Origin: Porphyra umbilicalis
Lineage: Eukaryota; Rhodophyta; Bangiophyceae; Bangiales; Bangiaceae
DNA: 64,000 bases
NCBI GenBank assembly: GCA_002049455.2
Contig: KV918839.1
Location: 1 to 64,000 of the forward strand
Direction: 5' to 3'
Shown here piece by piece: positions 18,532-57,589 of the stretch; positions within the stretch are counted from its first letter, which is position 1; each line of letters begins with the position of its first letter. A program made the position numbers and the translations under genes. Under the pieces are notes generated by a model. It worked only from the letters and a program-made list of their open reading frames with translations, was not told where the DNA came from and did no database searches.

Positions 18532-21213
18532 CTACGCAAGCGCGCGCTCTGCGTCCGCAATTGCGCGCACCACAGCCGTCTGCTGTGCAGGCCACGCGGT
18601 CCACCGCGACCCAAACCGCTCCAGCGCTCGACCGCACTCGACAGCTGCCGACCAGCGCTCCCCATCGATGAGCGCTTGCAACAGGGATAAGCTCGTCAGA
18701 GCCCACTCCTGTGGCGCTGCCTCGGGCGTACGCACCTCTAGAGCCCGGCGGAAACACGCGATCGCCGCGTCAATGTCCGCTGGCCCTGTGGCGCCGCCTC
18801 CATGGCGGCCGTGATGCGTGACGCCAATGTTGTACTGCGTCGCGGCCCAGTTGAGCGGCACTGCCGCTCGCGTGCGAACGGTGAGAGCGCGGTCAAAGCA
18901 GGCGCCCGCCGCCGCTACGTTAGCAGCAGGATCCCCAAATAGTCGGTCGCGGAGCGCCTTGCCAAGGTGGTTCTGGGTGGCACCCCACCTGAGCGGTGCC
19001 GCTTCCCGCGTACGCACGGTCAGTGCATCCTCGTAGCAGGCGACGGCCGCCTCGACTGCCGCCGCCTTGTCGCCAACGAGCCGCTCATAGTAGGCGATCC
19101 CGACGTTGTAGCGCGTCCGGGCCCATCGCAGCGGCGTAGCCGACCGCGTGTACTCCTCCAGCGCGCGTGAGTAGCAGGCAATGGCCGCCTCCACATTCTC
19201 AGCCTTGTCCCCAACGATGCGGTAGAAGTAGGCCACGCCGAGATCGTTCTGCACCTCTGCCCACTGAAGCGGCTCCGCCGCTTGCGTCCACACATCCAGT
19301 ACCCGGCCGTAGCAGGCAATCGCCTCCTCTACATTGGCCGCCTTGTCCCCAATCACCCGGTCGACGTACGCCATGCCGAGAATCCGCTGCGTCTCCGCCC
19401 ACTCAAGCGGAGACGCCTCCAGGGTACGCACCTCCAGCGCCTTCTGGTAGTAGGAAATCGCCGCCTCCATGTTGGCTGCCCGCGCGCCATCAATGCGGTC
19501 ACGGTGCGCGCGGCCAAGGCCCGCCTGCCACTCGGCCCAGAGCACCGGCTCACCGGCTCGCGTCACAAGGGAGAGGGCCCGCTCCCAGTACTTGATGGCC
19601 GCCTCCATGTTGTCCCGTCGGCACCCTGCAATACGCGCCTCATAGGCCAACGCCAACGCCGCGCGTACCCGGCCAAGCAGAACCGGCGAAAGAGTAACCT
19701 TGTCCGTGCCGTCATTCACTACGGCCGTCAGTGCGGCGAGAACCACCTCCACATCGGCCTGGAAGGCCAGTGGCGAACTTACCCGCTCGCGTGCGGCTTG
19801 CCAGGCGGGGTCCATGGCCGACACCAGCCCGCACACATCTTCCGCCGCGGCAACATGGCGCACCACATGGTCGTACCAGTAACCATCGTCCTGCACCTCC
19901 CAAAATGGGAGCCGTCGCCACGCGTGCGCATCCAAGCCGCCGGCAACCACCCCGCCCATGTAGTCCTCCAACAACCGCTGGTGCGTGGCTTGGGCGGCGT
20001 CACCGAGCAGGCTCAACGCATACTGGCCTATGACCGGATGTACAATGACGCCGACAAGATCCCCGCTGGTCTTGTCGACGTCACGGCGCAGAAGCCCCGC
20101 TCGTACGAGTGCAGCGATCAGCTCCTCCACGCCAGTGCTGCGCATGACCCCGCTCGATCGCCCAGCGGACAGCTCGCCAGCCGCGGTCGCCCCACCTAGC
20201 GGGGTCCGCCACAGCCGCCGTAGCACAGGAAGACCCACGCGGACCGGAAGAACGCCAATCTCTGCAAAAGCTGAGCGGTACACCTCATCCGGGAGAAGCT
20301 CGAGGCTCACGTCTAACGCCGCGCGCACCGACGGCCGCGGAGAATCGCTGTCTGAGCATCCAAAGTGAGGGTGCATCCACCACCGCTCCAGGCCCTCCAC
20401 CACCGCCCGCCATGCGCCACCGCGGTCAGCAATCATCGAGCCGACAATGGCCAGCGATAGCGCGTGGCACTCCGTCTTTTCCAGGACGCGGCGCACCCAG
20501 CTCGCCTCTTCAGCGTCCGAAAACGGGGATACCCCCGGCGCCATCGCCTTGCCGGCCGCCGCTGCCAACACAAGCCGCGCATCTCCGGCTGGCAAGGCGT
20601 CAATGGTTACTAGAGTAGCGCCTGGCAGGGACGCGACAACCGCCTCGGAACGCGTGGAAAAGAGCACAGGGGTTGCCCGAGGGATCAGTGCGAGGAGCTG
20701 CCGCAGTAACTCGCGCTTCTTGTACAGCACGTCATCGATGACAACCAAGCACTCGGCCGCGACCGCCTCGGGCACGGACCACATGTAGCTGGCCGCCACC
20801 TTCACAAAGTCTTTGTCCTCGGTCAGGGCTGCCAGCTGCTCAGAAGCGGTGTCCCCACAAAAGAGGTTTACGAGCGCCACAACCGCTCCCGCGACTGTTT
20901 GCAGCGTGGAGGACGTGTCCAACTGCACCCATGTCGTGCCTTTTGAGAAGTGCGCGCGCGCCCAGGCACAGGCCGCCACGCCTAAACACGCGGTCGTCTT
21001 GCCGCTTCCACCTACCGCGCAGACGCCGATCCGTCGTGCCTCGCCGGACCCCGCCGGAAGCGAACGCAAAGCGGCGACGATCGCGTGCTCCGCGCGAGAC
21101 GGGCTGTCCACCCCAGGCACATAGCCCACGTCAAGCGGTGGGGGGCGCCACCGCAGCGCCAACGCAGAGGTCGTGGGCCCGCTATCACCGGGCGCCGGGC
21201 TGGAAACACCCAT
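18532..21213 (-). CDS. NB-ARC/TPR STAND protein, NLR-like (gene 1)
   Basis: This is an intact frame of 893 residues from the ATG at 21213. I chose that start because its context (CCCACCATGG) is ideal and the preceding 97 codons look like leader sequence. Visible parts: P-loop GVCAVGGSGKTT at 63-74, Walker B CLVVIDDV at 154-161, a sensor-like PVLFSTRSE at 181-189, a GLPL-like CHALSLAIVG at 248-257, and a winged-helix end with VHPVIGQYAL near 390. From about residue 560, TPR-like units of roughly 45-50 residues recur (AAIxCYxRALEVRTxEAxPLxWAxTQ). NB-ARC proteins of this layout act as switch-like ATPases that oligomerise on sensing a ligand, and in plants and fungi many serve immunity or cell death. 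The ligand here is unknown. There is almost no N-terminal effector domain, unlike the paralogue at 46.7-50.1 kb, which is nearly identical from residue 160 to near the end. Confidence 0.85.
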   Translation of the reverse strand: MGVSSPAPGDSGPTTSALALRWRPPPLDVGYVPGVDSPSRAEHAIVAALRSLPAGSGEARRIGVCAVGGSGKTTACLGVAACAWARAHFSKGTTWVQLDTSSTLQTVAGAVVALVNLFCGDTASEQLAALTEDKDFVKVAASYMWSVPEAVAAECLVVIDDVLYKKRELLRQLLALIPRATPVLFSTRSEAVVASLPGATLVTIDALPAGDARLVLAAAAGKAMAPGVSPFSDAEEASWVRRVLEKTECHALSLAIVGSMIADRGGAWRAVVEGLERWWMHPHFGCSDSDSPRPSVRAALDVSLELLPDEVYRSAFAEIGVLPVRVGLPVLRRLWRTPLGGATAAGELSAGRSSGVMRSTGVEELIAALVRAGLLRRDVDKTSGDLVGVIVHPVIGQYALSLLGDAAQATHQRLLEDYMGGVVAGGLDAHAWRRLPFWEVQDDGYWYDHVVRHVAAAEDVCGLVSAMDPAWQAARERVSSPLAFQADVEVVLAALTAVVNDGTDKVTLSPVLLGRVRAALALAYEARIAGCRRDNMEAAIKYWERALSLVTRAGEPVLWAEWQAGLGRAHRDRIDGARAANMEAAISYYQKALEVRTLEASPLEWAETQRILGMAYVDRVIGDKAANVEEAIACYGRVLDVWTQAAEPLQWAEVQNDLGVAYFYRIVGDKAENVEAAIACYSRALEEYTRSATPLRWARTRYNVGIAYYERLVGDKAAAVEAAVACYEDALTVRTREAAPLRWGATQNHLGKALRDRLFGDPAANVAAAGACFDRALTVRTRAAVPLNWAATQYNIGVTHHGRHGGGATGPADIDAAIACFRRALEVRTPEAAPQEWALTSLSLLQALIDGERWSAAVECGRALERFGSRWTAWPAQQTAVVRAIADAERALA

Positions 21214-23665: not shown

Positions 23666-23930
23666 TCCAATCGACCCCACCGCCGACGACCCCCGCCACC
23701 GGCCACCTCCGCCGCCGGCCACCCCCTCCACTGACCATCCCCACTGCCGGCCACCAGCCGCCTCCCTCACCGACCGCCCGCCCACCCCAGCAATGGCCGG
23801 CCCCAGGTACCGAGGCCGTTCAGCCCCCTGGACGACGGCCCATCCTGAGAGCAAACCCTGCAACGTCGGCCCCAAGTCATATTTGCGAAACGTGGCGCAA
23901 CGTGGCGCAAACGTGTCTCATTATTAAGGA

Positions 23931-24100
23931 AATGGGGCCGGAACGCTCCCGCATCAACGTCTCCGACCCCATTTAGGCATCATTTCGCCCAACGCAAATG
24001 ACGTAAGTACAACGCATATGTTGCTTTCAGAAATGGGGCCCGTGCCGGACCGACCCCATTCCCGACCGGAAATGGGGTCGGACCGAAGCCGACCCCATTC
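23931..24100. repeat. cluster of alternating AATGGGG / CCCCATT motifs
   Basis: Six copies alternate in orientation: 23931, 23967, 24031, 24053, 24070 and 24092. Several are extended to AAATGGGGTCGG or CCGACCCCATT. A related pair lies at 36032 and 36063. The cluster is about 1 kb upstream of the Harbinger transposase and could be a terminal or subterminal part of that element; this is inference. Between 24110 and 25079 no gene is seen. Confidence 0.5.
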
Positions 24101-25079
24101 TTCTATGCTCTCTCATTGGTGGAACGATTCGAAATAGTATAGAAGATAGCACGCTTAAGCGAGCAACGTGTGGGTCCACGATCAGCCCCGGTTTTTCACA
24201 GTCATTCAGAAACTAGAAATTGTCGATCTGGACCACTCCTCTCGAAAGCGGGTTCACGGCTCTCGCCAGATATTTTTGTCACGGCATGCACAGAGGGAAG
24301 CGCGTTGGATCTTTTTGCGCCTGCGTGGCTCCCACGCATCGCTCACAGAGCAATCTGAGAGGGGAGGGGCTGTCAACCCAGGTGAGCTGCGCCCGCGGAG
24401 GGCCTCTCTGGGAGCCCTCGTGGAGGGTGGTCGTTTCACGAGGGCGGCGCGGGCCGTCGACAGCGCCGCGTGGAGGGGCGAGATTGGGCCGGTCGCTGTG
24501 CTACAGCTATTGGGGCGCCCTGACAGGAGCCTGAGGGGGTCCTGCAGCCTGAACGGTCGCGCCTGGATGGCGGGGGCCGCGATCGGCACCGTTTGAAGGG
24601 GGGTGGCCGCCCAGCCACCGTGCATCAGTGGCCGGGGGCGCCCGCACGAGCGCTGCCTGGGGGGGTGGTGGCGGGGCATCTCGGCGTGCATCTGCAGTGG
24701 GGGGGTGGGCTGGGGTGGCTGTCCGCAGTGGTCGGCCGGGCGCGCCATTCAGAGGACGGCACGGGCCGCCCGCTGCTTGCCACCGCCGTCGTCACCCCCA
24801 TCCCGCCGCCGCCGATTTTCGTCCACCCACCACACCCGTGAGCACGGCCGACGCGGCCCCTCCCCCATCGCGCCGGCCACGCGCTCTGCTCTCACGGCTG
24901 GGCTCCATCCCACTCCCCCCCCCTCCTCGATCTCGCTGGGCACGCGCGCTGCTCGCACCGCTCGTCCCCCCTCCTCCCCCCCTCCTCCATTTCCACGTCG
25001 CACCAGGCGCCCCTGCTGTTCTTCCCCATTCCCACCCCGCCCCCCACGGGGTCCGGTGGTGTGCGTCCCTGATTTCCGT

Positions 25080-26657
25080 ATGGACGTCCAGGAGGAGGAG
25101 GTCTCGGCCACCGCTGCCCTGCTGGCCGAGGACGACGGCGCGGACGTTGCTGCTGTGGTGCAGGCGCACGTCAATGTGTTCATGGCGGTGCGCCGACGCG
25201 CGCGCGCCAAGCGCATCGCGCGACGGTGGCTTTATCGTGGCTCCACCGCGGGGCGCCGTGGCAACAAGCGCCGCGACTTTGCGGCCGGTGTGCACGCCAT
25301 TTTGCGAGACTACTTCGGTGTTGGCGGTGTGCTCCCTATCTACGATGACCGGGACTTTGAGACGCGGTTCCGTGTCCCCCGCGCCGTCTTTCGGCGTATC
25401 TATTTGGCTGTTAAGGACGAGCCTTTCTTCCAACAACGCATTAATGCGACGGGACAGCTGCAAGCGCATCCTCTGCAGAAGGTAGTGGCTGCCTTTCGCG
25501 TGATCGCCTACGGCGAGGCGGCCGACCGAGCGGACGAGTACGTGCGCCTGTCCCGGACGGTGATCGCCGAGTCGACCAAGTTGCTGATGGAGTTTATTGT
25601 CAAGCGATGAAGACCTACCTACCTGCGACGACCGAACCAAGACGAGCTCAACATCATTATGGAGCGCAACAAGGAACGCGGGATGCTGGGGTGCATGGGC
25701 TCCCTCGACTGTTGCCACTGGGAGTGGCACCAGTGCCCGACGGGGATGGCGGGGGCGTACCAGAGTCGCAAGGGCAAGCGGGGCATCTTCGTAGAAGCTG
25801 TGTGTGACGAGGACCTGTGGGTGTGGCACCTGTTTGTTGGGGCCCCCGGCAGTCTGAACGACATCAACGTCATGCAGCAGTCGCCGCTGTACCTGGACGT
25901 CACTGGCGGCAGGTGGCCGCCTCGCGGCACGCCCTTTACTATCAATGGCCGCACCCGCACGCTACCCTACTACCTTGTCGACGGGATTTACCCGCGCTAC
26001 GCTTTTCTGATGTCGCCACACCCCAAGCCGTCCACCGAGGAGCAGACGACGTTCAACCGCCTCCAAGAGGCCATCCGAAAGGACGTGGAGCGGCTGTTTG
26101 GCGTATTGATGAAGCGCTTTCACGTTACGCTCCACCCTGGGCGCTACCGCTCTGTGTCGCAGCTAGTGACGACCTACAAGGCCATTTGCATTCTGCATAA
26201 CATGTGTGTGGAGAGTCGACGTAGCAACTTTTTGAGTCGCCGTCGACGTGCGGTGGGGGGTGATGGTGGGACTAACTATGGCGTAGGTGGCGATGCTGGC
26301 GGCGGGTCAGATGGTGGGGAAGGACAGAGCGGTGGGACACCAGCTGGCGGCATTGCTGCCGCCGGGGCAGTTGCACCTGGCGACGGCAGTCCCGGTGGCG
26401 TCGGCGGTGTTATTGCTGCCGCCGGGGCTCCAGCACCTGGCGGTGGCGTCAGCGGCGTCGCTGCGGCAATGGATAACATTGACGCCGTCGGCAACGCGCC
26501 CCCTGCTCTTAATCCCGTCGCCCACCCGCCTGCCGCTGGCATGGCTGCCATTTTTGATGCTTGGGCTGAGACGCAGAATGTGCAGGAGAACGAGCGCCTG
26601 CGAGCTGACCTGACCGCGGACATTTATCGCGACCGAGGCGAACTGCTTGCCCCGTAA
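25080..26657 (+). pseudogene. PIF/Harbinger-type DDE transposase with one in-frame TGA
   Basis: From the ATG at 25080 the frame runs to 26657 and is interrupted once by TGA at 25608-25610; both halves are in the same frame. The first half ends in MEFIVKR. The second resumes with YLRRPNQDEL and carries the catalytic core of the Plant_tran/DDE_Tnp_4 family: GSLDCCHWEW (first Asp), WVWHLFVGAPGSLNDINVM, YYLVDGIYPRYAF (second Asp), and RKDVERLFGVL (Glu). A TYKAICILHNMCVE helix follows, then a Gly/Ala-rich tail (about 26240-26540). Total length is about 525 codons, somewhat longer than relatives because of the tail. Harbinger transposases act in the nucleus with a Myb-like partner, and such a protein lies at 32.1-33.8 kb on the opposite strand. 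The single stop suggests recent inactivation; readthrough cannot be excluded. Confidence 0.85.
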
Positions 26658-26959
26658 ATTGGGTGACGCGATGTAGGGCGTAGTAGAGTAGACACAAAGG
26701 TTTTTTTTTCCCGCTGGGCAGGGTTTTTTTTCCTACACACCTTTGCTACGATCGTTTGAATGGCGGGAGGCCCCCAGCGCCGCTAACCCGGAGTGACTAG
26801 CCGACGGGTCCGGCGGGGGATCCCCCGGGCTACCTCGGCCGCGGTCGTCGCCGTCGTGAGGGCCGCCCGCGCCGGCCCGCCGCGGCCTCCACACGGTGGC
26901 AACCCGTGGTCATGCTGGCGCTCGCGGCTCCCGCGCCGGTGGCCGCGCAGCGCCCGACG

Positions 26960-27464
26960 GCGGGTCGCCGACTCCGCCGCCGCCGCCGCCGCCACCGCCG
27001 CCACCGCCGCCGCCGCCACCGCCAACGCCGCCACCGCCGCCACCGCCGCCGCCGCCACCGCCAACGCCGCCGCCGCCGCCGCCCCCGCCGCCGCCCCCGC
27101 CGCCGCCCCCGTCCCCGCCGCCGCCCCCGCCGCCGCCCCCACCCCCGCCGCCGCCCCCATCGCCGCCGCCCCCGCCGCCGCCCGCACCGCCACCGCCGCC
27201 CCCGCCGCCGTCGCCGCTGCCGCCTTCGCAGCCGCCGGTGCAGCCGCCACCTCAGCTGCTTCCTCCGCCGCCGTTGACCGCCACCGACGCCGCCCACTGC
27301 GCTTGGGCGGCGTCGAGGCTGTCGGCGAGTGCAGGTGCGGCGGCGGGAGGCTAGGCGACGGCTGCACCGCGGCAGCCACCGAGGGGGTCGGCACGGTGGT
27401 GGCAGGCAGCGGCAGCGGGCCGCCGCTGTCGTCGCCGCCGCCGCCGTCGCCGCCGCTGCCCCCG

Positions 27465-27495
<31 letters not shown>

Positions 27496-27585
27496 TGCCC
27501 CCGCCGCCACCGCCGCCACCACTGCCATGGCCGCCGCCGCCGCCGCCCCCGCCACCGCCGACGCCGCCGCCGCCGCCCCCGCCAC

Positions 27586-27634
<49 letters not shown>

Positions 27635-27800
27635 CCCGCCGCCGCCGCCGCCGCCGCCGCCGCCTTTGCCGCCGTCGCTGCTGCCGCCGTCGCAGCCGCC
27701 GCCGCAGCTGCTGCCGTCGCCTTCGCCGCACATGGCGCACTTGGCCGCCAGCGACGCCGCCCACTGCGCTTGCGGAGTCCAGCTGGCGGCGAGCGCACGT
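26960..27800. repeat. CCG trinucleotide arrays, duplicated unit
   Basis: Two long CCG/GCC arrays (about 26972-27225 and 27430-27720) are each followed by a related flank containing GACGCCGCCCACTGCGCTTG (near 27283 and 27752). A unit of roughly 460 bp therefore appears duplicated in tandem. The frames give poly-Pro, poly-Ala or poly-Gly and are not accepted as genes. Confidence 0.8.
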
Positions 27801-28126
27801 GCGGCGGCGCGAGGGTACGCAGCGCCCGCGCCGCGGCGGCGGAGCGGCTCCAGGCGACCAGGCTTCAGAGATTGCTGGCGGTGGCGGCTCGGGAGCGCGG
27901 GCGGGGCAGGATTGCGCGTAGCAGCAGCGTGGGCAGGGCGGCCCGCGGTGGGGAGGCTTTCGTGCGAAGAACCGCAAGATGATTGTGCGTGCGAGCTTCG
28001 CAAGATCTTGTGGCTCGACACGCTGCCCATGGACCGCATTAATAAACTTGCTTCTGCCGTTATCGCTCGCCACAAAAATCCCGCACAAACAATTCATTGC
28101 CACATAAGGTGCTGACGATGACACAG

Positions 28127-28618
28127 TCCAATGACATGGCGTCACTCAAAGAAGATACGCCAGTCACGAACGTGTGGATGGTCATGCGATCCCTCACATG
28201 ACGACAACGACCAATCAAAACACCTGTATCTATTATCGATGCAAGGCTTTCAACCACATGTTTGATGAATAACAACTGTCAGTAACCCCATTGGTTATCG
28301 TGGCTCTCGAAAGTTCTTGTCCGACAGTTGACGGACGCCAGCAGCTCACGTGACTACTTACACAACTTCAAGAACCAACCACACCACTAGTATGTACCAT
28401 ACATAGCAAGACTTGGCCCCCCGTCAATTTCAATGAACATGTCTAAGCCGTTCCATTGGTTGTCGCGGCGCTGTTTCAATGCCCACAGAGGGCGAACGAC
28501 AGAAAATCACGCGGTCCCCGACGTACACTTATGAAGAACCAACAAGAACACGTGCATACATCTGACACTGCACAGCTCTGAACCGTGTCGGTGTTTAACA
28601 GCATTTCTGCACACCCCA
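28127..28618. repeat. diverged tandem repeat of about 164 bp, three units
   Basis: The anchor CCATTGGTT followed by TCGYGG-like sequence occurs at about 28289, 28454 and 28617, a spacing of 163-165. Between anchors, words such as AAGAACCAAC, ACTTAYRMA and CACCCCA keep their order. GC is low for this window. No gene is seen from 27800 to 29097. Confidence 0.45.
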
Positions 28619-29097
28619 TTGGTTGCTGTCGCGCAGTTTGTATGACGTCGTCGAGTGGATGGCTGCGAATGAGATCTACGGCGGCGACAGCGGGACCCTC
28701 ACAGAGCTGGGGGGAGGCGGTTTGTCATCCGAAGATCGCTCCCTGGGGGGGCGATCAGATGGGGCGATCTGTGGTGAACGATCCCGCATTGAGTAGGGCG
28801 TCAGCGTACGGGTGGCGCGGTTCTTCGGACAAGCATTCCTTTCTCTTGCAATACATTCCGCACTTTATTGAACACGAACTCACGAAGATGAAAAGAAGTG
28901 TACATGTCCACGCTTGAACCCAGTCATAGAGACGGCGGATTCGGGTGACTCTGCGAGCCCAATACAAAGGCGATGGAATGTCCCCACTGATGCATCCAAC
29001 CTGAGTCGCGGAGGGCTTTCTGGTGCTGCCCAGGTGGTCTCTGCCGGGCAGTGGCCGTGACCGTCACCCACGGCACCCCAGGCAGACCCACTCCAGG

Positions 29098-29104
29098 TAT
29101 ATAG
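29098..29104 (+). promoter_or_regulatory. TATA box upstream of histone H3-like gene
   Basis: TATATAG lies in GC-rich surroundings about 345 bp upstream of the ATG at 29444. The leader would be about 315 nt unless a 5' intron is present. Confidence 0.5.
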
Positions 29105-29443
29105 AGGAGCCCATCCCAGCCATCTCCTCTCGGCGTCATCCGGCAGCATCGTCCCTTCTGCCCGTCCCGTTCCCCATCCCCGCCCCGCCAACCTCCACTG
29201 GCGGTGCGGCCTGTCCCCGCCTCGCCGGCTGTGTTCTGGGGTTGACCTGTCCCCCCTGGCACCCTGCCCCCCTTCCCCCCCCCCGCGCCCCCAGCCTCTA
29301 CCGTTGGTGGGACCTGGCCCGGCCGCGCTGACTGTTGTCTGGCGTGGACCTGCCCCCCCCCTCACCCCGCCTCAACTCTCCTCCTCCTGCCCCCCCGCTC
29401 CTCCCCCACCCGTGGCGGCTACCACACCTGCGCCCCGCCAGCC

Positions 29444-29857
29444 ATGGCGCGGACGAAGCAGACGGCGCGGCGGTCCACTGGCGGCAAGGCCCCGGCTTCT
29501 CTGGCCAGGGCCGCCGCCAGGCGGGCGACCAAGTCCAAGGCCGGTGGCAAGGCCGCAGTCAAGCGCCGTTACCGGCCTGGGACGGTCGCCCTGCGGGACA
29601 TCCGCAAATTTCAGCGGTCGCGGGAGCTGCTTATCAGCAAGCTCCCCTTCCAGCGGCTGGTGCGCGAGATTGCGCAGGAGTACACCAACTCTCCTCGCTT
29701 TTCGGCGTCAGCTGTACTGGCGCTTCAGGAGGCGTCCGAGGCCTACCTGGTGGGCCTCTTCCAGGACGCTCAACTGTGCGCCATCCACGGAAAGCGTGTG
29801 ACTGTCATGACCAAGGACACTCAGCTTGCCCGCCGCATCCGTGGCGAGCGGGCGTAG
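29444..29857 (+). CDS. divergent histone H3 variant lacking K9 and K27
   Basis: This intronless frame of 137 residues (canonical H3 has 136) opens MARTKQTAR and closes with the canonical [11 protein letters not shown]. The fold is conserved: [47 protein letters not shown], and [12 protein letters not shown]. The tail differs sharply. K9 is Arg (TARRSTGG), the K27-S28 site reads RRAT, and K18 and K23 are replaced, while K4 and K14 remain. One net residue is added between the tail and YRPG. Loop 1 keeps its length and the tail start is canonical, so it is not a centromeric CenH3. It should assemble into nucleosomes but cannot carry H3K9 or H3K27 methylation or acetylation. It lies between a Harbinger transposase and a Harbinger-type Myb-like protein. 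It may be a stress- or stage-specific host variant or a captured gene. Confidence 0.9.
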
Positions 29858-31400
29858 CTTTTGCGTTGTGGGAACATGTTTGCATTGAGTTTACTACATT
29901 CATTTACTTCTTTGAGAGACGTGGTGCTCGAGTGGGATGGAGTCCAAGTAAGACGTGGGACGTAGGTGCAAAAAAAAAAGAAACATCCGGAGAAGCCGCG
30001 GCCCTCGCACCCGCGTCGCCACCCACGGGAGGCAAAGGGAGAACCACCGCCGGCGCGTCGTGCCGTCGGCGCCGTCGGCGGCAGCCACCAGCGCGTGCAG
30101 CCCCGCGGCGGCGGCGGTGGCGGCGGCGGCCGACGGGCGGCGGCCGTGTGGGGTGCGGGGACTGCGGCACGAGACGCCGTGGAGTGGCCACGGGCACGCC
30201 ACCGCCACTTGCGCCGCCGCCGCCGCCGCCCACGCCACCGCCGCCGCCACCGCGCGCCGTCGACGTTGCCGGCACGGACGGTGACATCCATGGCAAAGGC
30301 AACGGCGGCGGCGGTTGGGACCGTCGCGTCCACAGCGGTTGACGCGACGGTGGCCGCTGCAGGGGCGGCGAGTGCGTCGCCGACGTGGTCGCCAACGGCA
30401 GTCTGGCCGCCGGGACCCGCCGCTCTTGCGGCCGCCGCGCCCCCCCGCCAAAAGCGTTGGCGACGCGCCGCCCGTGCCGCCGCAGCCGCCATTGCCGACG
30501 CGCAGGGGCGGGCGCCGCGCCACGATGCGGCAGCGGCGGTGGCAAAGACCCCCCCCCACCCCCCCCCGCCAACCCCCCCGCCGTGCCGCCGCGGCCGCCA
30601 TTGCCGACGCGCAGGGGCGCGCGCTGCGCCACGGTGCGGCAGCGGCGGTGGCAGAGACCCCCCCCCCCCATTCCCCGCCACCCCCCCCCCCCAATCAGCC
30701 CGCGGCTCTTCCCGTCGCCGTCGGCCGCTGCACACGGCACCGACCGCCCGCCGCCGTCGTCCCCGCCGCGCTTCGCCGCCAACAGCGTCGGCGGCGCGCT
30801 GCCCGTGTCGCCGCCGCCAGCGTTGCCGTTGCGTCACCGGGCGCGATAACGCCGCGCCGCGGCCGCAGCAGCGGCGGCGAGGGTAGAAAGCTCTGCTGCG
30901 CCGCGCTCGCGCCGCACTGGCCGCCCGGCAGCGGTCGGCGCAGCGGGCGCGCCGCGCCGCCAGTGCCGGCCCACGACCCCCGCCGCTGGCGGTGCGGCAG
31001 ATCGTTGTGGGAGGGGCGGCCTTCGCGCGGGGCTGATCCCCATGCGGGAAAGCGAACATCCCCCGCGCCCTCTCGTTCCATTTGAGCGGTGGCGTTGAGA
31101 TACGAAGCACGGACAGCAAGACATGTGCATGTATTTGCGCCACAAAAGTTGAGAACGCGAGACGGGGTCTTACGGGGGCTGTACAGTCAGTCACGCGACC
31201 TATAATTTGAACATGCCCACATACTCCAAAAACCACACCGATTTCGGCAGAACTGTTTTTATTTTATTGTCGCACTGTCATGCTGGCCGAGAACATTCGA
31301 TGAAATGTACTCGGCGCTCACCGCTCGCCCGCGTTCGCTTGCGGCTCCGAACTCGGGCCTGCGGCGACGTGCGAACGGGCGGCCCACACCGGGCAGCAAC
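29858..31400. other. GC-rich low-complexity DNA, no gene seen
   Basis: After the H3-like gene the sequence becomes CGG/GCC-rich with C runs (30545-30690) and all frames open. A direct repeat of GCCGCCATTGCCGACGCGCA occurs near 30485 and 30594. From 31085 to 31400 GC falls, but no supported frame appears. Confidence 0.5.
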
Positions 31401-31439
31401 GCTCGCCCGCGTCTACCGCTGCCCGCCTGTTGCCCCCCG

Positions 31440-31990
31440 CCGTCGCCCGCGGGCTAGCGCCGCGGTCCCCTCGCCCGCGGCTTTTCGTGCCCGCGGTTGC
31501 CCCCGCGCTTGCGCTGGCGTTTGCTCGCTCGCGGCTGTCGCCGTGTGCCGTCGCCCCGGCGCTGGCGCCGCGGTCCCCTCGCCCGCGGCTGTTGGTGCCC
31601 GCGGTTGCCCCCGCGCTTGCGCCGCCGTCTGCGCGCTCGCGGCTGTCGCCGCGTGCCGTCGCCCCGGCGCTGGCGCCGCGGTCCCCTCGCCCGCGGCTGT
31701 TGCGGCCCGCGGTTGCCTCCGCGCTGGCGCCGCGGTCCCCTCGCCAGCGGCTTTTCGTGCCCGCGGTTGCCCCGGCGCTGGCGCCGCGGTCCCCTCGCCC
31801 GAGGCTGTTGCTGCCCGCGGTTGCCTCTGCGCTGGCGCCGCGGTCCCCTCGCCCGCGACTTTTCGTGCCCGCGGGTGCCCCCGCGCTTGCGCTGGCGTTT
31901 GCTCGCTCACGGCTGTCGCCGCGTGCCGTCGCCCCGGCGCTGGCCTCGCGGTCCCCTCGCCCGCGGGTGTTGCTGCCCGCGGTTGGGCCG
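31440..31990. repeat. 54-bp minisatellite
   Basis: About ten imperfect units of 54 bp are built around GGCGCCGCGGTCCCCTCGCC and GCCCGCGGTTGCC. On the minus strand they read as 18-residue units (GEGTAAPAxGQPRARKAA-like), on + as PRSPRPRLFVPAVAPALA-like strings. Neither resembles a known family. I treat the array as noncoding. Confidence 0.75.
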
Positions 31991-32128
31991 CAAGGTCGTC
32001 TATGTGCACCGAGAAGGACATAAGTGTAGGAAAAACAAAAACCCGAAGAGGGATAAAAAAAAAACCTTTTGTTGTCACCGAGCTGCTGCTACATGTCACC
32101 AAGCACAAAGCAATACACAGTCGCTACG

Positions 32129-33775
32129 CTACGCAGTGTCCGTGGTGGTGGTGGTCGTCGTGTCAGACTCGCTACTTTGGTCAAGGCCGCGGGTTGTATC
32201 CAGCTGCTTGCTGAGAGCCGCAGAAGCGGCGCGCTGCTTCGCGGCTTGCGACTTGCGGCCACGCTGGTTGTCGCCCCCCCTGCTGCCGCGCGCCGGCGGC
32301 GCCGCCGGCGACTTCGCCCCCGCCGCCAGAGCCGTTGCAGCAGCAGTATCTGCTGCCACACGCGCCGCCGGTGGGTCCTCCCCCGGCGGCGCGTTAGCTC
32401 CGGCGGCAGAGCCGGCCGCCGGCGGCGCCGACGACGACGCATCAGCCGCGAGAGTGGTGACTTCCATGGCGGCCACGCCGTCGCCAACTTCCACAACATG
32501 GATCTTCTTGGCAGCACTGCGCGCCGGCGGCGCAGGCGTGGGAGCCGGTGCAGGGGGCGCCGCCAGGCCAGCAGCTTGCATCATCTTGAGCATAACAGCT
32601 TGCCGGTACTGTGCCGCCTAGGGCGTGTGACGCATCGAGGGAGAGTCAAAAAAGCAAAGCGCAGTGCGCTCTTGCTGCGCAACGGTCAACTTGTCCACCG
32701 CCGCCGTGTTCGCCTTGACCTGCTTCTCCATTCCAGCGTCCTCCGACCGCATCAGCTTGGCGGCCTTGATGCCGCCCGGGCGGCTCTGATACCCCTTGTT
32801 GCGCGAGTTCGGGCTGCTCGTGCTCTCGCTCTCGCCGTCCTCGTCTGAAGAGTCGCCCACGTCCACACTCGCGTCGTCCGCCGTGTTGGCCGCGCCGCTG
32901 AACTTGTCAGATGTGCGCAAAACGCGCCAGCACCCCACCCACTTGCAATGCGCCAGTTTGGCTTTGCGTTTGGCCGTCTTGCCCTTGCGCTTATCCTTCT
33001 CCCGGTCGCGGCGGATGGACTCGTAGATGTCCAGCGAGCAGTACCGCGCGACCGCACCGCTGATAATGTCCTCCTCCGTCAGGTTCCCGGTAGTTTCCAT
33101 ATTTGTTACGGCCAGATAGTGAGAAGTAAACGAGCTCACCCCCTTCCGGATCTTCTTGAAATGCTTCTCCAACGCACTGACGTTGCGCTTGACGCGCAGG
33201 GGCCCCTTCTTGGTCATCAGGTCCGTCCACTTCTCGTGCACAGCCGCCCACAGCTGGTGCTTGGAGCCACCAGTGGCGCTCACAGGGTCCTCGCTCACCT
33301 CCAAGTAGGCCCTACACAGCGGCACGCGGTCCTGGTCCGTCCATCCCAGGCTGGAGCCCATGGACTTGGGGAGGTTGTAGTTCACTGCTGGAACGGCGAC
33401 GTCAGGTAGAGAGGGGCCTGCTGGGGAGGCTGGGGGGGAGCAGGCACCAGCACAAACGTCGAGGGGGGCGGGGCTTGGTGGCCGCCTACCACGTACAGAG
33501 GGTGGCGAGCTGCCTCCTGCGGCGTCGGCTGCGGCGTCGGCTGCGGGGCTGGGTGGCACCCGACCACGTACAGAGGTTGGCGCGCTGGCTCCTGCGGCGT
33601 CGGCTGCAGCGAGGGCTGCGGCGGCGCGGGCAACAACATCAACGGCAAAGGCGTGCTCTGCGGCTGCCCCGTCGTCAACGCCCACTGGTACGCGAGCCCG
33701 CCGTGTGGCTTGGCGGGTGACTCGCCGCTCCAGAGCGCCGGACGGTGGCACACCGGGTACGGCGGTGGCCGCCAC
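32129..33775 (-). pseudogene. Harbinger-associated Myb/NAM-like DNA-binding protein with one in-frame TAG
   Basis: The core (residues about 140-255) reads LGWTDQDRVPLCRAYLEVS, LWAAVHEKWTDLMTKKG, ALEKHFKKIRKGVSSFTSHY, and NLTEEDIISGAVARY. This is the trihelix/Myb-like plus NAM-associated layout of the second protein of plant-type PIF/Harbinger elements, which helps the transposase bind DNA. A charged linker and acidic Ser-rich stretch follow. The frame meets TAG at 32618-32620 after SPSMRHTP, yet continues in the same frame with AAQYRQAVMLKMMQ to 32129, which fits the C-terminal helix of the family. The N-terminal part before the core is uncertain, because the overlapping Pro/Tyr/Trp-rich frame 33382-34560 looks more protein-like there. 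It is convergent with the transposase at 25.1-26.7 kb. Confidence 0.75.
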
Positions 33776-34560
33776 GCGGAAGACCAGCTACCGGTGGGGT
33801 CGTACCCACCGGTTGGCCACGGCTCGCCCACGCTCGCGTACCCGTGGGTGGACGAGGACGGGGGTGGCGGCGGCCAAACGCCGTACGAACGCCGGTGATC
33901 GTCGACCGGTGGCTCCGGCGGCCAGCACCTTGGGTCTTCAAACGGGCCCGCCGGTCGTCGCGGGGGGCTCCAGCGAGGGGATCCGTGTCCGGGACCCGCC
34001 AGTCGTCGCGGAGGGCTGCACCGTCGAGGGCCCCGTGGGGCGCCCGTTGGTCCTCGCTGCGGGCTCCACCACGGGGGGGGGGGGGGCCCTGTGGGGGCCC
34101 GCCGGGCGTCGAGGGGGGCTGCGCCAAGGGGGCCCGCGAGGCGGGCCCGCTGGTCGACGAGGCGGGCTCCACCGACGGGGATAGTCGCCGCCGGCTTGAG
34201 GGTGATAGCGCCCGTCGTCTTCGACGCGTCGACGAACACGTCGGTCGTCAGGATCGGCGCGGTCAGCGTCAGGTCCGAGGCGGCGGGGATGAGGAGGGCA
34301 GGGCAGCCGGTGTGGTGCCGGAGGCCGGCCGCCTTGATTAAGCGGCCGGCCAACACCCCAGCCCGCAGGCAGGGGGCGGGAGTGATTGCGGGGAGGGGAG
34401 GGCCCGAAAGCGCGGGGCGGTGGGGGGGAGGCGCGTACATGGAGCCGTCCTCCCTGGGACCAGCGAAGCTCGTTGACCCGAGGCGGGAAGGGCGGCAGGG
34501 TGCAGCGCACCGTTCAGCAGGTGGGGGGGGGGGGGGGGGCGTCCGTGGTGCCGTGGTCAC
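33382..34560 (-). CDS. Pro-rich frame, possible true N-terminal part of the Myb-like protein
   Basis: This 392-residue open frame is rich in Pro, Tyr, Trp and Gln (for example YGVWPPPPP, GYDPTGSWSSAWRPPPYP, LYVVGGHQAPPP). It ends exactly where the Myb-like core begins in the neighbouring frame (NYNLPKSMG). Plant relatives of the Myb/NAM-like proteins commonly start with such Pro/Gln-rich stretches, so a one-base frame change near 33385 may have split one gene. The far upstream half (34000-34560) is low-complexity and doubtful. Confidence 0.35.
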   Translation of the reverse strand: MTTAPRTPPPPPPPAERCAAPCRPSRLGSTSFAGPREDGSMYAPPPHRPALSGPPLPAITPAPCLRAGVLAGRLIKAAGLRHHTGCPALLIPAASDLTLTAPILTTDVFVDASKTTGAITLKPAATIPVGGARLVDQRARLAGPLGAAPLDARRAPTGPPPPPWWSPQRGPTGAPRGPRRCSPPRRLAGPGHGSPRWSPPRRPAGPFEDPRCWPPEPPVDDHRRSYGVWPPPPPSSSTHGYASVGEPWPTGGYDPTGSWSSAWRPPPYPVCHRPALWSGESPAKPHGGLAYQWALTTGQPQSTPLPLMLLPAPPQPSLQPTPQEPARQPLYVVGCHPAPQPTPQPTPQEAARHPLYVVGGHQAPPPSTFVLVPAPPQPPQQAPLYLTSPFQQ

Positions 34561-36365
34561 ACGGCCCCGCGCAGGTGCAAGGCGGAGAGGGCGGGGTGGC
34601 AGCGCGACCGTTGCGCTGCCGCTGCGCTCGGCGTCGTCGCGTGTCGTTGGCGCCCTTCACACGCGTCATGAGCGCGGTTACAGAGGGGGGAGGGGTGGGC
34701 GCGGTGGGTGGAGGGGAGGGGTGGGCGGGATGGCAGACGGAGCGCGCGCGCTGCACAGACGTCCCACCACACCGGCGCGATTGCGCACACAGAGGAGACG
34801 CGTCCCCGCCGCCCGCCCAATCCCACCTGCCGTCCGACGGCGGGTGAGAGAGTGTGGGGGGACTGCGTCAGCCTGGCCCGCCCCGCAGGAGACCTGGCTC
34901 CCAGAAACTGGTCACGGTTGAGAACCGACCAGCGCGCATGCGTCTCGTCGTCCCACGTGCAGCCCGTCCACAGAGGCGCCGTGCCCGCCCGATAAAATAT
35001 GAACGAGCGGGTGGGACGAGCCGGAGAGACCCGCCACGGCAGCCTGACAACGCAGACCCGTTTACAGGCGGGAATCATACGCCCCTACGCCACACACGTT
35101 GGACGGCTGGGGGGTCGAGCGGCACGCGTCAGACTGACACGCCGGACACGGCACACGTCGGACGGCTGAGGGGCCGCGAGGCGGCCCCTGACGAGTCGCG
35201 GCGCTGAATGCCGTCACGCCTCCAGAGCCAGCGAGGGCGTTAGCGCGGCGGCCGTTCCAACGTCAAAAGGATGACCAGTTGGTCACGTGACCGGCTGGCC
35301 ATCCGTTCTGAGGCGTCGCCGTGTCCACCCAATGCGCAGAGCGCTTCGCACCCCTCCAGTGGCCCACTCACGCACGATCTCATCCGATGACGCGAACCAG
35401 CTTCAACCGAGCATTGTGCAAGTGGCACCGAAACCGACAGGTTGTGGCGTCGACTAGTCACCGAAAGTGCAGCTTTTGAGAAAAGTGATGCCATCCAGGA
35501 CGACAGATTGGTTCGATTCACTGGATCAGCCAATGACTGCACTTCCCTCCAAACTGGGCGGTTTCAAAACAGCTCCCGAGAGTGTCAACGGCAACGACAT
35601 CTGACCTGTTGATATCTCGCGACGAGCCTTCCGCACAATGCGGATCGTGCCAGTGGCGACGCCCGCTCTCCAGTTTCCCCGCCCAGCCGCTTACCGCTTC
35701 TTCTGTGGCCCGATCCAATCCGTTTACAATCGACAGGACTGAGCACGAGGAGATCGGATTCTTCCCAGGGGCGTAGTTTCGATGAGGTGCCCGATTTATG
35801 TCGTGGCCGTGCCAGGTGTCGGCCCGTTCGTCCCTTTGAATGCCTCTTTCTTCGACGTTGTCATCGGTTTCGACGATTATTAGCGGCATATCTGGCGCTT
35901 GACGAGGACGTGGCAATCTCACCGCGACTGTTGGGCACACTTTCCGGACAACTTTTCGGTGGTTTCGTTTCATTAAGCGCTGATCGAGATCCCTTAGCGC
36001 TCCTTTGCTTTCATTCGGATTTGGACTACCAGAATGGGGCTACACATAACCCAGCAATGACGACCCCATTCAGACCGTCTCGTGGCTCGTTTCAGACAGC
36101 TCGATGCCCAACTACATCGCGTCTGGCCCCAAACAGGGCCCCCAGAATGGGCTCTCCATTCAGCATGCCACACGTTGCGCCTCTAGATTCCCCAATTGGA
36201 AGATGGGATCGACGTTGCAGGGTTTGCTCTGACGCCAACCGCTGTGCCCGATCTCCCTCCTCTCCGGCCGCTCCTCCCGCCAGCAGCGGCCGCCGGTCGC
36301 TACCGTCGCCGACCACCCCCCAAAAGAGGTGCCGCCTCCGGCCGCCCCCGGCCGCCCGCGAGGGC
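34561..36365. other. no gene seen
   Basis: A C-run at 34522-34540 and mixed GC-rich sequence give way after 35200 to DNA of more even composition. No domain-bearing frame is present. AATGGGG/CCCCATT motifs at 36032 and 36063 resemble those near 24 kb. Confidence 0.4.
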
Positions 36366-37760: not shown

Positions 37761-40700
37761 TGGTAGCTCTAATCGCTGCTCTTGTTCAGACGACTAGCAC
37801 CACCACGGCTGTGCTCGTTGCTCCCGTCCACGCGCGCGGGAAGGTATCTTTGGGGCGGCACCACGGCTACCCCGGGCAGCGAGGTCATCCGCGAGGGGGT
37901 CCTCGCCGGCAGCGTACGGGCGTCGAACCGGTCCCGCGACCCGGTCACCCCGCCACCGCCGCCACCGCCACCGGGCTTTCCCCCGCTGTCGGCTGCCGCG
38001 CTCAACACGCCGCTCGCCATCATGCCTTCGTCGGGCACCGCGCCGGACGGGGGCGTCACGGAGGTGAAGACGGTGCACGCCAAGGCCTTGGCGTGGGAGG
38101 GGCCCGCGGGGTTTCCTCAGTACGAGGAGGATGTGCAAGTGTGGCTGCACATGACGACGCTGCCTGACGACAAGAAGGGCGGCGCGATGCGGATGGCGCT
38201 GGGGGGCGTTGCCAAGGAGGCGGCACGCATCGTCCCGGTCGCCACCCTGATGACGGCGTCGGGCCACGACACCCTCCTGCAGACGCTGCGCTCCGCCTTC
38301 GGCGGCAGCGAGTTCAAGCGGGGGCAGGACGCGTACCGCCATTTGAAGACGCTCTACCGCGGGACGCGCACGATGGAGGCGTACTTGGCCGCCAACCGGC
38401 CAGGCGCTCGCGCAGTGCAACCTCAACGGCTACTCAATGTCGTCAAAGACGGCCGGCGCCATCGTACTCGACCAGGCGGGGCTGGACGCCAGCCAGCAGG
38501 CGTCGACGGTGGCCACGGCCGCGGTGCACGCCATGCGCGGTAGCAACGGGATCACCTCCATCACGACCGCCCTGCGTGATTTGTGGGGGGGCGACTCGCT
38601 GCTCAAGCCGTCGCCGCAGGCCGCAATGATGGTCGTCACGTACGCAGAGCACGAGGCGTACATGGCCCGCCAGACGACGCCTACCGTCCACCGTCCCCCG
38701 GGGGCGGCGGTAGCTCCTCCCGCGGGCCGCCGCGGAAGGATGCGGTCAGTTGCTGGCACTGTGGCAAGAGCGGTTATGTGCGCCAGGAGTGCCGCAAGTT
38801 GGCCCGGGAGATGGCCGCCCGCGGGGATGCCGTCGCGCCTCCTGCGCCGGGTGGCGACGCCGACGCGGCCGAGATGGGGTACGTGGCGCACGAGTCCGCT
38901 CACATCGTGCTCTCCGCGGTCAAAGGGGAGGAGGCGGAGACGCTCGACACGCGCGTTGGCGACGTCATCTTGGACATCGGCGCGACCGCCTCCATTGCCG
39001 GAGCCGCGTGGGTGGCGGCATACGTCGCTCGTCTGACGACGGTGGAACGGTCGGCCATCCGCTCCATTGAGGCCAATGCCATCTTCAACTTTGGCGGCGG
39101 GGCCAAGCAGCGTTCCCGGGAGCGCGTCACGTTGCCGCTGCTGGTCGGGGGCCGCCGCTGTCTCGTCAAGACGTGGGTGGTGGCGGGCGACTTGCCGCTG
39201 CTGCTCAGCCGGAAGACGATGGCGTCCCTTGGGGTGGTGCTTGACGTCGACCGCGGCGTCATGACCGTCGGCGCGCTGGATGTCGTCGTCCGCCTGACCG
39301 TGTCGTCGGCGGGCCACCTCACCTTCAATGCGTTGGCGCCGGGCATGGGGGCTCCGGCGGTGGTGGACATCTCCGACACGGCGCCGCTCGAGTGCCTGGC
39401 CGTGCTCACCAAGCACACGCCGGGACTCGACCGCGCGGCCGCCAAGTTGCACACCCAGTACGGGCACAGCAGCGCGCCGCGGCTTCACGCCTTGCTGCGG
39501 CAGGCCAAGGTGACGGATGGGGAGGTGTTCGCCGCGGTGACGGCTGCGGTGAACGGTTGCGACGCCTGCGCGCGGACGGGCCCGCGCCCGTCGCGCCCGC
39601 TCGTGTCGATCCCGCGTGCGCTCAAATTAAATGACGCCGTGGCCGTGGACTTGGCGGAAGTGGCTCCCCTAGGCCGCTTTCTCCACATTGTGGACTTGGG
39701 TACTCGGTTTGCCAAGGCTGTGGCTATTCCGAACAAGGAGACGGTGACTGTGTCATGCGCTCTTCTGTCGGGGTGGCCGGTGCATCACGGTCCGCCGCGG
39801 GCCCTGCTTTCGGACCCTGGCGGGGAATTCGACAGCGCCCTGTGGCGCACGGTGGCCGAACGGCACAACATCACGGTCTACTCGACGGCGGCGCAGGCGC
39901 ACTTTTCCAACGGCATGGTGGAGCGTCACAACCAAACGCTTAAGACGATGGTGGCTCGGCTGCGCGTCGACCACCCTGGTGCCGAGCTCCAAGAGCTTCT
40001 TGATTTGGCCTGCCTTGCCAAGAACAGTCTTGGGCAGCACAACGGCGCGACGCCGTATCAACTGATGTGCGGGTCGACCCCCCGCCTGCCGACCGCGATG
40101 ACGGACGAACTGCCGGCGCTCGGCGACGCCCGCGTCGCGGGCGACGAGGCCCTCCACCGGCACCTGGACCTGCTCCACTCGGCGCGGGAGGTTCATAATC
40201 GCGCGGAGGCGGACGTGTCTCTGCGCCGGGCGTTGGCGCGGAACGCGACCAATGCCGCGCCCTGTGCGCTTGCGGTTGGGGACGCAGTGTACTACTGGTC
40301 GGACGGTATCACGCCCGGCCAAGGGCGCTGGCAGGGTCCCGCGCACGTGACGGACGTGGCGGTGGCCAAGGACGCCGTGCGCCTGCAGCACGCCAACCAG
40401 TGAGTCAACCGGCACACAAGCCAGGTGCGGCTTGTCCTCCCTCGTCCACCCTCCTCGGCGGCCCCTCTTCCTTCGGCGGCCACCGCTGGCGCGTCATCCC
40501 CCGCTGCGGGCCCTTCCGCGCCAACGCCGGTGTCGCTGCCGACGTCCAGCTCGCACGAGGCGGCGTCCTCGGACGATCAGACGGACGACGAGGCTGTGGC
40601 CTCCATGCTGGCTGGTGCGGCTGCGGCACTTAACCGCATTGCCGCCGAGGACGCGGCGCCGCCGCCTACCCCGCAGCCGACGCCAGCTCCCCGTTGGGCG

Positions 40701-42559
40701 GCAGGACGCGGGCCACGTCCCACCGGGCCTTTGTCGTCGCGCGTGCGGCGCGGCGTGCGGAGCAACACGGTCGGTCTCGCGACGCCCTGCGGGCGGCTCT
40801 TTCCAAGCCGGACGACCTCGGCGGGGCTTTGCACCGTGATAGTGCCGTCGTGCATCAAGCACTGGTGACTCGTCGGGAGCTTCGTCGGCGGGCCGAGGTC
40901 CCGGTTGGCCTGGCGGGAGCGGCGTTTGACGACGCCATGACGGCGGAGTTGGACGCCTGGTCCGACCTGGCCGTGTACACCGAGGTGCCCTATGCGGGAC
41001 AGGTGGTGTTGTCAACCCGGTGGGTGCTCACCATCATGGAAGCAGACTCCCCTGGTGGCGCTCCCCGCCGCAAGGCCCGCCTCGTCGTGCGTGGCTTTGA
41101 AGACCCCAACCGCGACTCGGTCGACAGCACCTCGCCCACGGCGTCGCGGGCGGGCATTCGGGTGGCCCTGGCGGCCATGGCGACGCACTCTTTCATTCCG
41201 CGCACGGTGGACGTCCGGACTGCCTTCCTGCAGGGGCTGCCGCTCGACCGCCCCGTCGCGGTGTATATCCAGCTGCCGCCTCGGGCTCGCGTGCCCACTG
41301 GCTCAGTCTGGCAGCTGCGAAAGTGCGCCTACGGCCTGACCGACGCGCCGCGCCGCTGGTATGACAGCGTGCTCCGCCTGATGACTGCCCTGCAGCTGAA
41401 GCGCGCTCCCCTGGACCACGGTGTGTTCACGCAGCACAGCCGGGGCACGCTCATTTTCGTCGTGGCCGTGCATGTCGACGACTTCCTCTTTGGTGGTACC
41501 ACGGAGGCGGTGCAGCGCTTTGAGTCGGCGCTGCGCGGCGCCATTGCCGCGGGGCCCACCAAGTCGGGCGCCCTCACCTTCACGGGGGTGCGCGTGAATA
41601 CGGTGGCGGACGATGTGACCGGCGGCATCTCCATCGCGGCCGACCAGGAGCCGTATGTCGACTCTATCGAGTCGATTAACATTACCCCTGAGCGGGCGGC
41701 GACGCCGGATGCCCGCCTCACCGCGGCCGAGCTCACGCTCTACCGTCGCGCCACCGGGGCGCTTCTGTGGGCTACGGGTCAGACCATGCCGTACCTGGCG
41801 TGCGCGGCCTCCACGCTGGGGCGCCGGTTCACGCGGGCGGCCGTGCACGACCTCACGGCGGCCAACGGCGTCATCAAGGCCGCCAAGGCAGCGCGCCCGC
41901 TTCCCCTCGTCTTCCGCGCCCTCCGTGGGGACCTGCGCTTGCGCCTCTTCGTCGACGCGTCCAGCGTGAAGCTCGGCGTGCCCACGGCGCACACAGGCGT
42001 CGCTGTGTTTGCCTCGCCGGCGACCGGCGCCCCTGGCCTCCTCCGCCCGGACACGCAGCTGACGCTGTTGGCCTATGCCTCGCACCGCCAGCGGCGGGTC
42101 ACTCACTCCTCCTTCGCCGCGGAGGTGTACGCCATGCTCGAGGGCGTGCGGATGGCGCTCGAGCTGGCCTCGACGCAGGCACATGTCTTTGCTGGGGACG
42201 CACACGCTCTGGCTTCCATCGACGTCTACACCGACAACCTGTCGCTGTACAACACGCTCGATGCTGACGGCGTCGTCCAGCCCAAGGAGGTGGGGGCGGC
42301 GGTGCAGGAGCTGCGCGACTTCTACCACGGCGGCAAACTAGCGACGGTGACGTGGCTGCGCGCACGTGGTCAACTGGAGGACGCGCTGACCAAGGCCGGC
42401 CGCAACACGCCTTCGCAGCAGACGATTCAGACGGGGCGTTTCAACGTCCGGCTCCAAGACGGTGACTACCTGTCGAAGTCTTCCATGGCGGCCGATCAAG
42501 GTGGTGTTTATGCTTCGTCCTCCTCCCCGGACGATGGGGCTTATGGGAATAAGGAGGAG

Positions 42560-42924
42560 TGTGAATGAGCAAGATGCTCACGCGCAGCGGTGGCGCCGCG
42601 GACACGTTGCCACGTGGACGCGACCGTTCCCGTACCGGTGCCACGTCGCATCGGACGTGGCGGACGCTGGTGATGCAGCGGCCGCCAAGGCGCCCGCGAC
42701 CGTTCCCGCGGGCGCTTCCGCGGCGGTCACCGGTCGCAACGGGCGGGTACCGCGGGGCGGTGCGCCGCCGTGACGCCGTGCCGCAGACGGGCGGTTCTGG
42801 GGAACGATTGCACGCCGGACGAGCGGCGGGTTAGACGACCGACCGACGTGGCCTAATAGTGAGGAGAGGGAAGAGACTGGGGAGCGAGGATAGAGCAACA
42901 AGACAACGAGTCTCTTTTCTTTCA
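42560..42924 (+). repeat. 3' LTR of copia element
   Basis: The LTR is 365 bp, begins TGTGAATG and ends TTTCA. A polypurine tract ends at 42559, and the target duplication ATATT follows at 42925-42929. Confidence 0.95.
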
Positions 42925-57563: not shown

Positions 57564-57589
57564 CGCACCTGGCAACAGCTGCGGCGCGG

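Follow-up and report, generated by a model that had tools for sequence, protein, structure and literature searches.

Transposons are silenced largely via marks on histone H3, and DNA transposons that have captured H3 are already known in fungi, where hAT elements carry the H3L of Pyrenophora tritici-repentis (PMC3538342) and the H3 of Pseudocercospora fijiensis and its relatives (PMC6710886). In the portions of these reports available to us, the captured copies of P. fijiensis are described as inactivated by RIP (PMC6710886), and those of P. tritici-repentis as recent, near identical and represented by ESTs, with a selection test absent from the available text (PMC3538342). VANC, encoded by the VANDAL transposons of Arabidopsis, enables escape from silencing and is comparable in how it works only: it is sequence-specific, causes loss of DNA methylation, and is not described as a histone in the text available (PMC5735166). 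Also in Arabidopsis, ALP1 and ALP2 are a Harbinger transposase and a Myb-like protein that have become domesticated, the same two protein types as in the element described below. They associate with PRC2 and antagonise PRC2/H3K27me3 silencing, an antagonism that their authors suggest, in the sections available, might originally have helped elements to evade surveillance by the host (PMC4671723, PMC7282668).

The element described here, from the red alga Porphyra umbilicalis, shares with the fungal hAT elements terminal inverted repeats (TIRs), an H3-like coding sequence beside the transposase, and the spread of that H3 to tens or hundreds of copies (for the fungi, as far as the accessible text goes, PMC3538342, PMC6710886). 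It differs in superfamily (PIF/Harbinger instead of hAT) and in target-site duplication (TSD; 3-bp TNA instead of 8 bp). In contrast to the fungal cases, its H3 protein is conserved across diverged subfamilies, and a second element type in the same genome carries an H3 as well; furthermore, K9 and K27 are replaced, a statement made for the algal tail alone. Its DDE transposase and the Myb/SANT-like protein encoded apart from it are those of PIF/Harbinger elements, as are the short TIRs and a TSD of 3 bp; a third gene, histone H3, within a 12–14 kb element is unlike the usual ones. ALP1 and ALP2, as described in the sections available, are host genes whose products bind PRC2 and include no histone; the algal element would instead remove the PRC2 substrate. 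Searches of an open-access library (subscription papers, some preprints and Repbase being outside its scope) turned up the fungal hAT cases and nothing on an H3 carried by Harbinger or Plavaka elements or by elements in algae, nor any captured H3 for which maintenance by selection had been tested; the word 'histone' is absent from a review, published in 2026, of how plant genes are captured (PMC13317346).

We analysed a window of 64,000 nucleotides (contig KV918839.1, positions 1 to 64,000), in which a histone H3 variant gene (29444–29857, + strand, 137 aa) lies between a DDE transposase gene and a Myb/SANT-like gene within a PIF/Harbinger element of 12,381 bp (23849–36229). The perfect 20-bp TIR on the left (GAGCAAACCCTGCAACGTCG, 23849–23868, + strand) recurs as its reverse complement on the right (36210–36229, − strand), and the two TGA duplications outside them (23846–23848 and 36230–36232) are identical. 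The transposase gene (Plant_tran, DDE_Tnp_4; 25080–26657, + strand) is split into ORFs 25080–25610 and 25659–26657, and the gene for the Myb/SANT-like (NAM-associated) second protein (32129–33361, − strand) into ORFs 32618–33361 and 32129–32593. Since both are broken, the window copy is probably not autonomous; its H3 frame is still open. Pfam searches revealed a PIF/Harbinger-type DDE domain in the window ORF and likewise in the 528-aa transposase frame of the C148 copy (Plant_tran E 2e-60, DDE_Tnp_4 E 7e-16). The 410-aa Myb/SANT-like protein matched NAM-associated at E 1.4e-6 (29.6 bits, cut-off 27.7), and Myb_DNA-bind_4 at E 0.0019, below that profile's cut-off. No hAT transposase domain was found by Pfam in the element ORFs, and the TSD measures 3 bp, not 8 bp. 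GC-rich tandem arrays lie between positions 30472 and 31985, comprising a 109-bp repeat (30472–30688) and a 54/108-bp array (31436–31985), both with unit numbers that vary among element copies. These might be likened, as a lead only, to the targets of VANC in Arabidopsis elements, which are frequently tandemly repeated as well (PMC5735166).

We then determined the borders of the element from the window and 10 other copies fetched over 16–20 kb. Alignment to the window began at 23844–23848 in 9 of the 10 (in C33, only from 25615) and stopped at 36230–36237 in 9 of the 10 (in C276b, only at 36216). Perfect 20-bp TIRs and identical 3-bp TSD pairs were present in all nine copies with both ends readable among the 11 examined, C276b being without a right end and C33 not fetched to its left end. 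PIF/Harbinger elements have short TIRs and a 3-bp TSD that is usually TWA; here the nine duplications were TCA (5), TGA (2), TAA (1) and TTA (1), that is, TNA and not strictly TWA. The DDE transposase, the Myb/SANT-like protein and these TNA duplications together identify the element as PIF/Harbinger. The exact TIR 20-mer occurred 81 times in the genome, against 0 for a control pattern read backwards. Element length was 11.8–14.1 kb in eight other copies; that in C245, where the TIR occurs twice at the left, measured 13,570 bp from the inner copy (14,488 bp from the outer), the outer copy (C245:42516–42535) having the same orientation, lying 918 bp outside the element's left end, and being perhaps a remnant or nested end. 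The 528-aa transposase frame was intact in 9 of the 10 other fetched copies, and the 410-aa Myb/SANT-like frame in 8.

A search of the genome to which the window belongs, 83.8 Mb in 665 contigs, returned 79 H3 matches, and the flanks of the best 30 were compared with the window over up to 1.5 kb on each side. Among the 29 other copies in this set, 19 shared 1.6–2.8 kb with the window at 93–99% identity, 6 shared about 2.2 kb at 88%, one shared 1.9 kb at 91%, and in the 3 copies of subfamily B the resemblance, at 80%, was confined to about 0.5 kb surrounding the gene. A lone host H3 variant was rejected as an interpretation, the flanks being repeated on many contigs and ending at TIRs. We defined the family as the 43 matches that start at query residue 1, reach residue 136 or 137 and have an identity of at least 71%. 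Three host-type copies, two on C17 and one at C540:17270 (96% to human H3), were set apart; C540:3790 is a fourth host-type H3, which matched in two pieces. Of these 43 full-length copies, at least 35 had the transposase in the same orientation no more than 9 kb upstream, where about 0.28 would be expected by chance, and at least 34 had the Myb-like gene in the opposite orientation no more than 11 kb downstream. Both companions were in place for at least 30 copies and one or the other for at least 39, these counts being lower bounds because the underlying searches score only the best candidates; four copies (C29:279495, C3, C204, C211) had neither companion among the matches listed. These results leave us nearly certain that the H3 gene is transposon cargo. 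At least 53 further transposase/Myb-like pairs, 1.0–3.7 kb apart, had no H3 match between them among the matches listed; a few may belong to degraded elements akin to the H3-bearing family, and related Harbinger families in this genome seem to do without H3.

The identity of the 29444–29857 product as H3 is not a chance resemblance, given the Pfam Histone match (E 3.5e-38) and the full-length alignment with solved H3 chains (best E 7e-54). It aligns with H3 end to end, has no insertion or deletion in its core relative to host H3, and terminates in RIRGERA. Residues were assigned by aligning the 43 full-length copies to the host's own H3, in which K9 and K27 are both present. The tail reported in the sequence-only reading proved to be that of the whole family: position 9 is R in 43 of 43 copies and position 27 is R in 42, K18 is deleted in all 43 and position 23 is A in 42, and K4 and K14 are each retained in 42. 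Beyond the losses named in that reading, 42 of the 43 copies carry A at the K36 site (a K stands two residues further, in uncertain register), R for K56 and T for K79. Since these three lysines, which have active roles, are lost as well, the tail is not tailored to silencing marks alone. The TATA box noted upstream is indeed present, as TATATA at 29098–29103 (+ strand), 346 bp before the ATG; TATATA or TATAAA stood at −346/−344 in all five A1 and A2 copies examined, and no TATA motif was found within 800 bp of H3 in the three copies of subfamily B. Relative to the common A1 sequence, the window H3 has two missense changes (G58R and I124T in H3 numbering, by eye). The earlier suggestion of a working gene fits the family and is doubtful for the window copy, with these changes and both companion genes split.

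Centromeric H3 (CENH3) typically has a longer loop 1 and a divergent tail; the element H3 was rejected as a CENH3, its core being without a loop-1 insertion relative to host H3. The gene at C17:290760–291179, whose loop 1 (AVATSFRF) is longer and whose tail is divergent, is a candidate centromeric H3. A viral origin was likewise set aside, a search of viral_contigs that reaches close relatives only having found no relative. The genome_contigs search returned eight loci in bacterial MAG records, three of them full length at 68–69% identity, which we take for stray eukaryotic contigs.

Selection was examined across the subfamilies of the H3-bearing family, A1, A2 and B, which are separated by dS of 0.13 (A1/A2) and 0.57–0.69 (A/B). 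Between A1 and A2 (C148 versus C28), H3 showed 13 synonymous changes and 1 nonsynonymous change (omega 0.027, bootstrap 0–0.09), with 0–2 nonsynonymous changes in the remaining A1/A2 pairs computed; between A1 and B (C148 versus C58), there were 50 synonymous and 14 nonsynonymous changes (omega 0.07), and C148 versus C413 gave an omega of 0.09. The H3 proteins of A1 and A2 are one residue apart, whereas their upstream noncoding DNA differs at 190 of 1397 sites. Against a neutral nonsynonymous share of 0.717, obtained from substitution rates in adjacent noncoding DNA under a single-hit model, the shares between subfamilies were far lower (1/14, P 8e-7; 14/64, P 2e-16). In contrast, distinct changes within single copies, scored in 40 of the 43 by comparison with whichever of three reference copies was nearest (C168b, C211 and C3 being unalignable without gaps or too far), were nonsynonymous or stop in 201 of 276 cases (198 nonsynonymous, 3 stops and 75 synonymous; 0.728, P 0.74 versus neutral). 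In a 17-copy subset the figure was 47 of 66, with changes shared by C42a and C42b counted once. Five A1 copies were identical in H3 coding sequence, and 39 of the 43 copies were free of internal stops.

The companion genes were constrained as well, with A1/A2 omega of 0.14 for the transposase and 0.21 for the Myb-like gene, 0.17 for the transposase core of C148 versus C413, and 0.09 for the Myb-like gene of C148 versus C58. The difference in constraint between H3 and the transposase (13:1 versus 30:13) was not significant (P 0.15), and H3 was weakly more constrained than the Myb-like gene (P 0.024). Strong purifying selection on H3 between subfamilies is thus strongly supported, and changes within single copies look neutral. 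Constraint along transposing lineages with free drift after insertion is the signature expected of a gene that the element needs, and a function of the H3 protein is very probably selected through the element. A pseudogene family was ruled out by this substitution test. The sequence-only reading had treated many decayed relatives as a sign of a pseudogene; many copies exist and some are decayed, yet what has multiplied is a transposon, and conservation holds along the lineages that separate the subfamilies, so that this sign did not prove decisive.

The best explanation, which we rate barely better than an even chance, is that a functional H3 is cargo of this 12–14 kb PIF/Harbinger element and resists silencing through K9 and K27. 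The element would make its own H3, with a histone core, the activation-associated K4 and K14 kept and no lysine at 9 or 27; this H3 would enter the nucleosomes of the element itself, or also those elsewhere in the genome; such nucleosomes would block or dilute H3K9 and H3K27 methylation; and transposase expression would then persist, so that the element keeps moving. Expression of the element H3, its assembly into nucleosomes and escape from silencing are what we infer from the sequence. Conservation shows that the protein is used and not for which use, and anti-silencing as the selected function appears evenly balanced between true and false. An anti-silencing factor, if transposon-borne, was one branch of the earlier interpretation; it is now the favoured one and partly supported, the gene being transposon cargo conserved along transposing lineages. 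The other branch was permanently open chromatin; marks at K36 and K79 are usually tied to transcription, and the loss of both residues speaks against its simplest form. If the favoured explanation is true, an H3 that the element supplies itself, that cannot be marked and that is kept by selection would directly answer the question of how elements evade chromatin silencing. Whether removal of K9 and K27 from H3 suffices to free an element would then be testable in nature, with controls built into the genome (the related Harbinger families that have no H3, and the other element type that has one).

The main rival to this anti-silencing explanation is that H3 serves transposition itself, a variant nucleosome or free H3–H4 pair recruiting the transposase and Myb-like protein or steering insertion, with the tail changes following from that role. 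The shared constraint on H3, transposase and Myb-like gene fits it, as does the disappearance of K36, K56 and K79 besides K9 and K27; however, it is weakened by the sister Harbinger families without H3 (the pairs counted above, a few of which may be degraded relatives), and we consider it unlikely. Purifying selection, seen on the protein when subfamilies are compared, and the many copies free of internal stops would also agree with an H3 variant that serves the host, the transposon having multiplied a useful gene under selection at the level of the alga. This is improbable when single-copy changes look neutral, nearly all copies stand beside transposon genes, and selection is visible on the transposing lineages.

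Equally improbable, in our estimate, is a poison or decoy acting in trans, by which the element H3 would dilute K9/K27-methylatable H3 genome-wide, helping all elements and burdening the host. Many copies could supply the dosage and arginine at 9 and 27 is no substrate, but genome-wide harm would be selected against, and the residues are R, not the M carried by methyltransferase-inhibiting oncohistones. Least credible, and very improbable, is a reading that predicts an H3 omega near 1 on internal branches. It has fungal precedents, as far as their available text goes (PMC6710886, PMC3538342), and can point to the five identical A1 copies, but the protein has been preserved at the dS values separating A1 from A2 and A from B, and has changed by a single residue between A1 and A2 while their upstream DNA diverged.

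Nine further matches appear to form a second dispersed family of H3 genes, in which the tail is longer (C83, C121, C1, C150, C390, C61, C2:451453, C12:464336 and C39; the C83 copy spans 168697–169410). Five of the nine were read (C83, C121, C1, C150 and C39); the three with an N-terminus (C83, C121, C150) each have K4 and R9, no lysine stands at the K27 site, and the VK at the K36 site is kept (by eye). A common partner ORF lies 1.5–2.0 kb downstream on the same strand in seven of the nine (C83, C121, C1, C61, C2, C12, C150), and the Plavaka domain PF18759 lies 2.8–3.4 kb downstream on the same strand in five (C150, C61, C1, C12, C2). These Plavaka matches had E values from 4e-9 to 2.5e-4, that in C2 being below the cut-off, and the domain is interrupted by stops in C1, C12 and C2. 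Constraint on the H3 core is seen between lineages, where C83 versus C1 gave 28.5 synonymous and 4.5 nonsynonymous changes (omega 0.04), and not in the close pair C1/C39, which had an omega of 0.83. Judging by its sequence neighbourhood, a Plavaka-type transposon appears to carry this second H3 with K4 and R9.

In H3 trees the Harbinger and Plavaka families each formed their own clade (97 and 96); with a bootstrap of 34 on the joint branch of the two, the captures may have been independent, or R9 in both may reflect shared ancestry rather than convergence. That two unrelated DNA transposons are each armed with an H3 unmethylatable at K9 and K27, with K4 kept, in a genome with 71 dispersed CXC-SET (E(z)-like) pairs, is a tentative reading to which we give somewhat less than an even chance. 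If true, it would amount to a chromatin arms race by histone substitution, in which histones, and perhaps histone methyltransferases, are mobile cargo.

A third, small H3 family was observed at C137:51563, C268:14813, C240:95863, C281:48444 and C37:250401, the last three placed there by match only. The two copies read (C137, C268) begin MARVKQ..RH, with K4 and R9; further transposon cargo is not supported for this family, the homology of these two copies being limited to about the coding region.

On the host side, phycobilisome genes on contig C665 and an allophycocyanin whose nearest matches are red algal chains point to a red alga, and the high GC content suggests Bangiales, N. haitanensis having 70.06% GC (PMC8752119). 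Of the 76 preSET_CXC matches in the genome, 71 had a SET domain on their own strand no more than 1 kb downstream, one such pair being on the window's own contig outside the window (C79:185008–185691). The one CXC-SET gene read (C50:199061–199738) resembled EZH2 most closely (E 2.6e-35). Dispersed E(z)-like genes in such number are unusual, and these pairs, together with the gene closest to EZH2, make a K27 methyltransferase likely to be present in the host. A Pre-SET profile search of the genome gave no match, its controls likewise matching nowhere. In the red alga C. merolae, according to the accessible text, H3K27me3 covers 50% of repetitive elements (PMC5405695), and knockout of E(z) leads to expression of transposable elements (PMC13353863, citing Hisanaga 2023). 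A Copia reverse transcriptase was seen about 1.5–3 kb upstream, on the same strand, of the CXC-SET genes at C378, C174 and C69 (by eye, among the best 150 of 767 candidates); these three genes may be retrotransposon cargo.

Other features of the window were recorded. Two NB-ARC/TPR proteins, very similar by eye, are encoded about 25 kb apart at 18532–21213 and 46656–50120, both on the − strand, the first being shorter at its N-terminus. A Copia-type retrotransposon occupies 38811–42568 (+ strand; RVT_2 E 5e-23, integrase core E 7.5e-5, below cut-off). At 56568–59734 (− strand), a reverse transcriptase ORF with a Dam-like domain is followed by a tyrosine recombinase ORF, an arrangement that we take to be that of DIRS/Ngaro-type retrotransposons.
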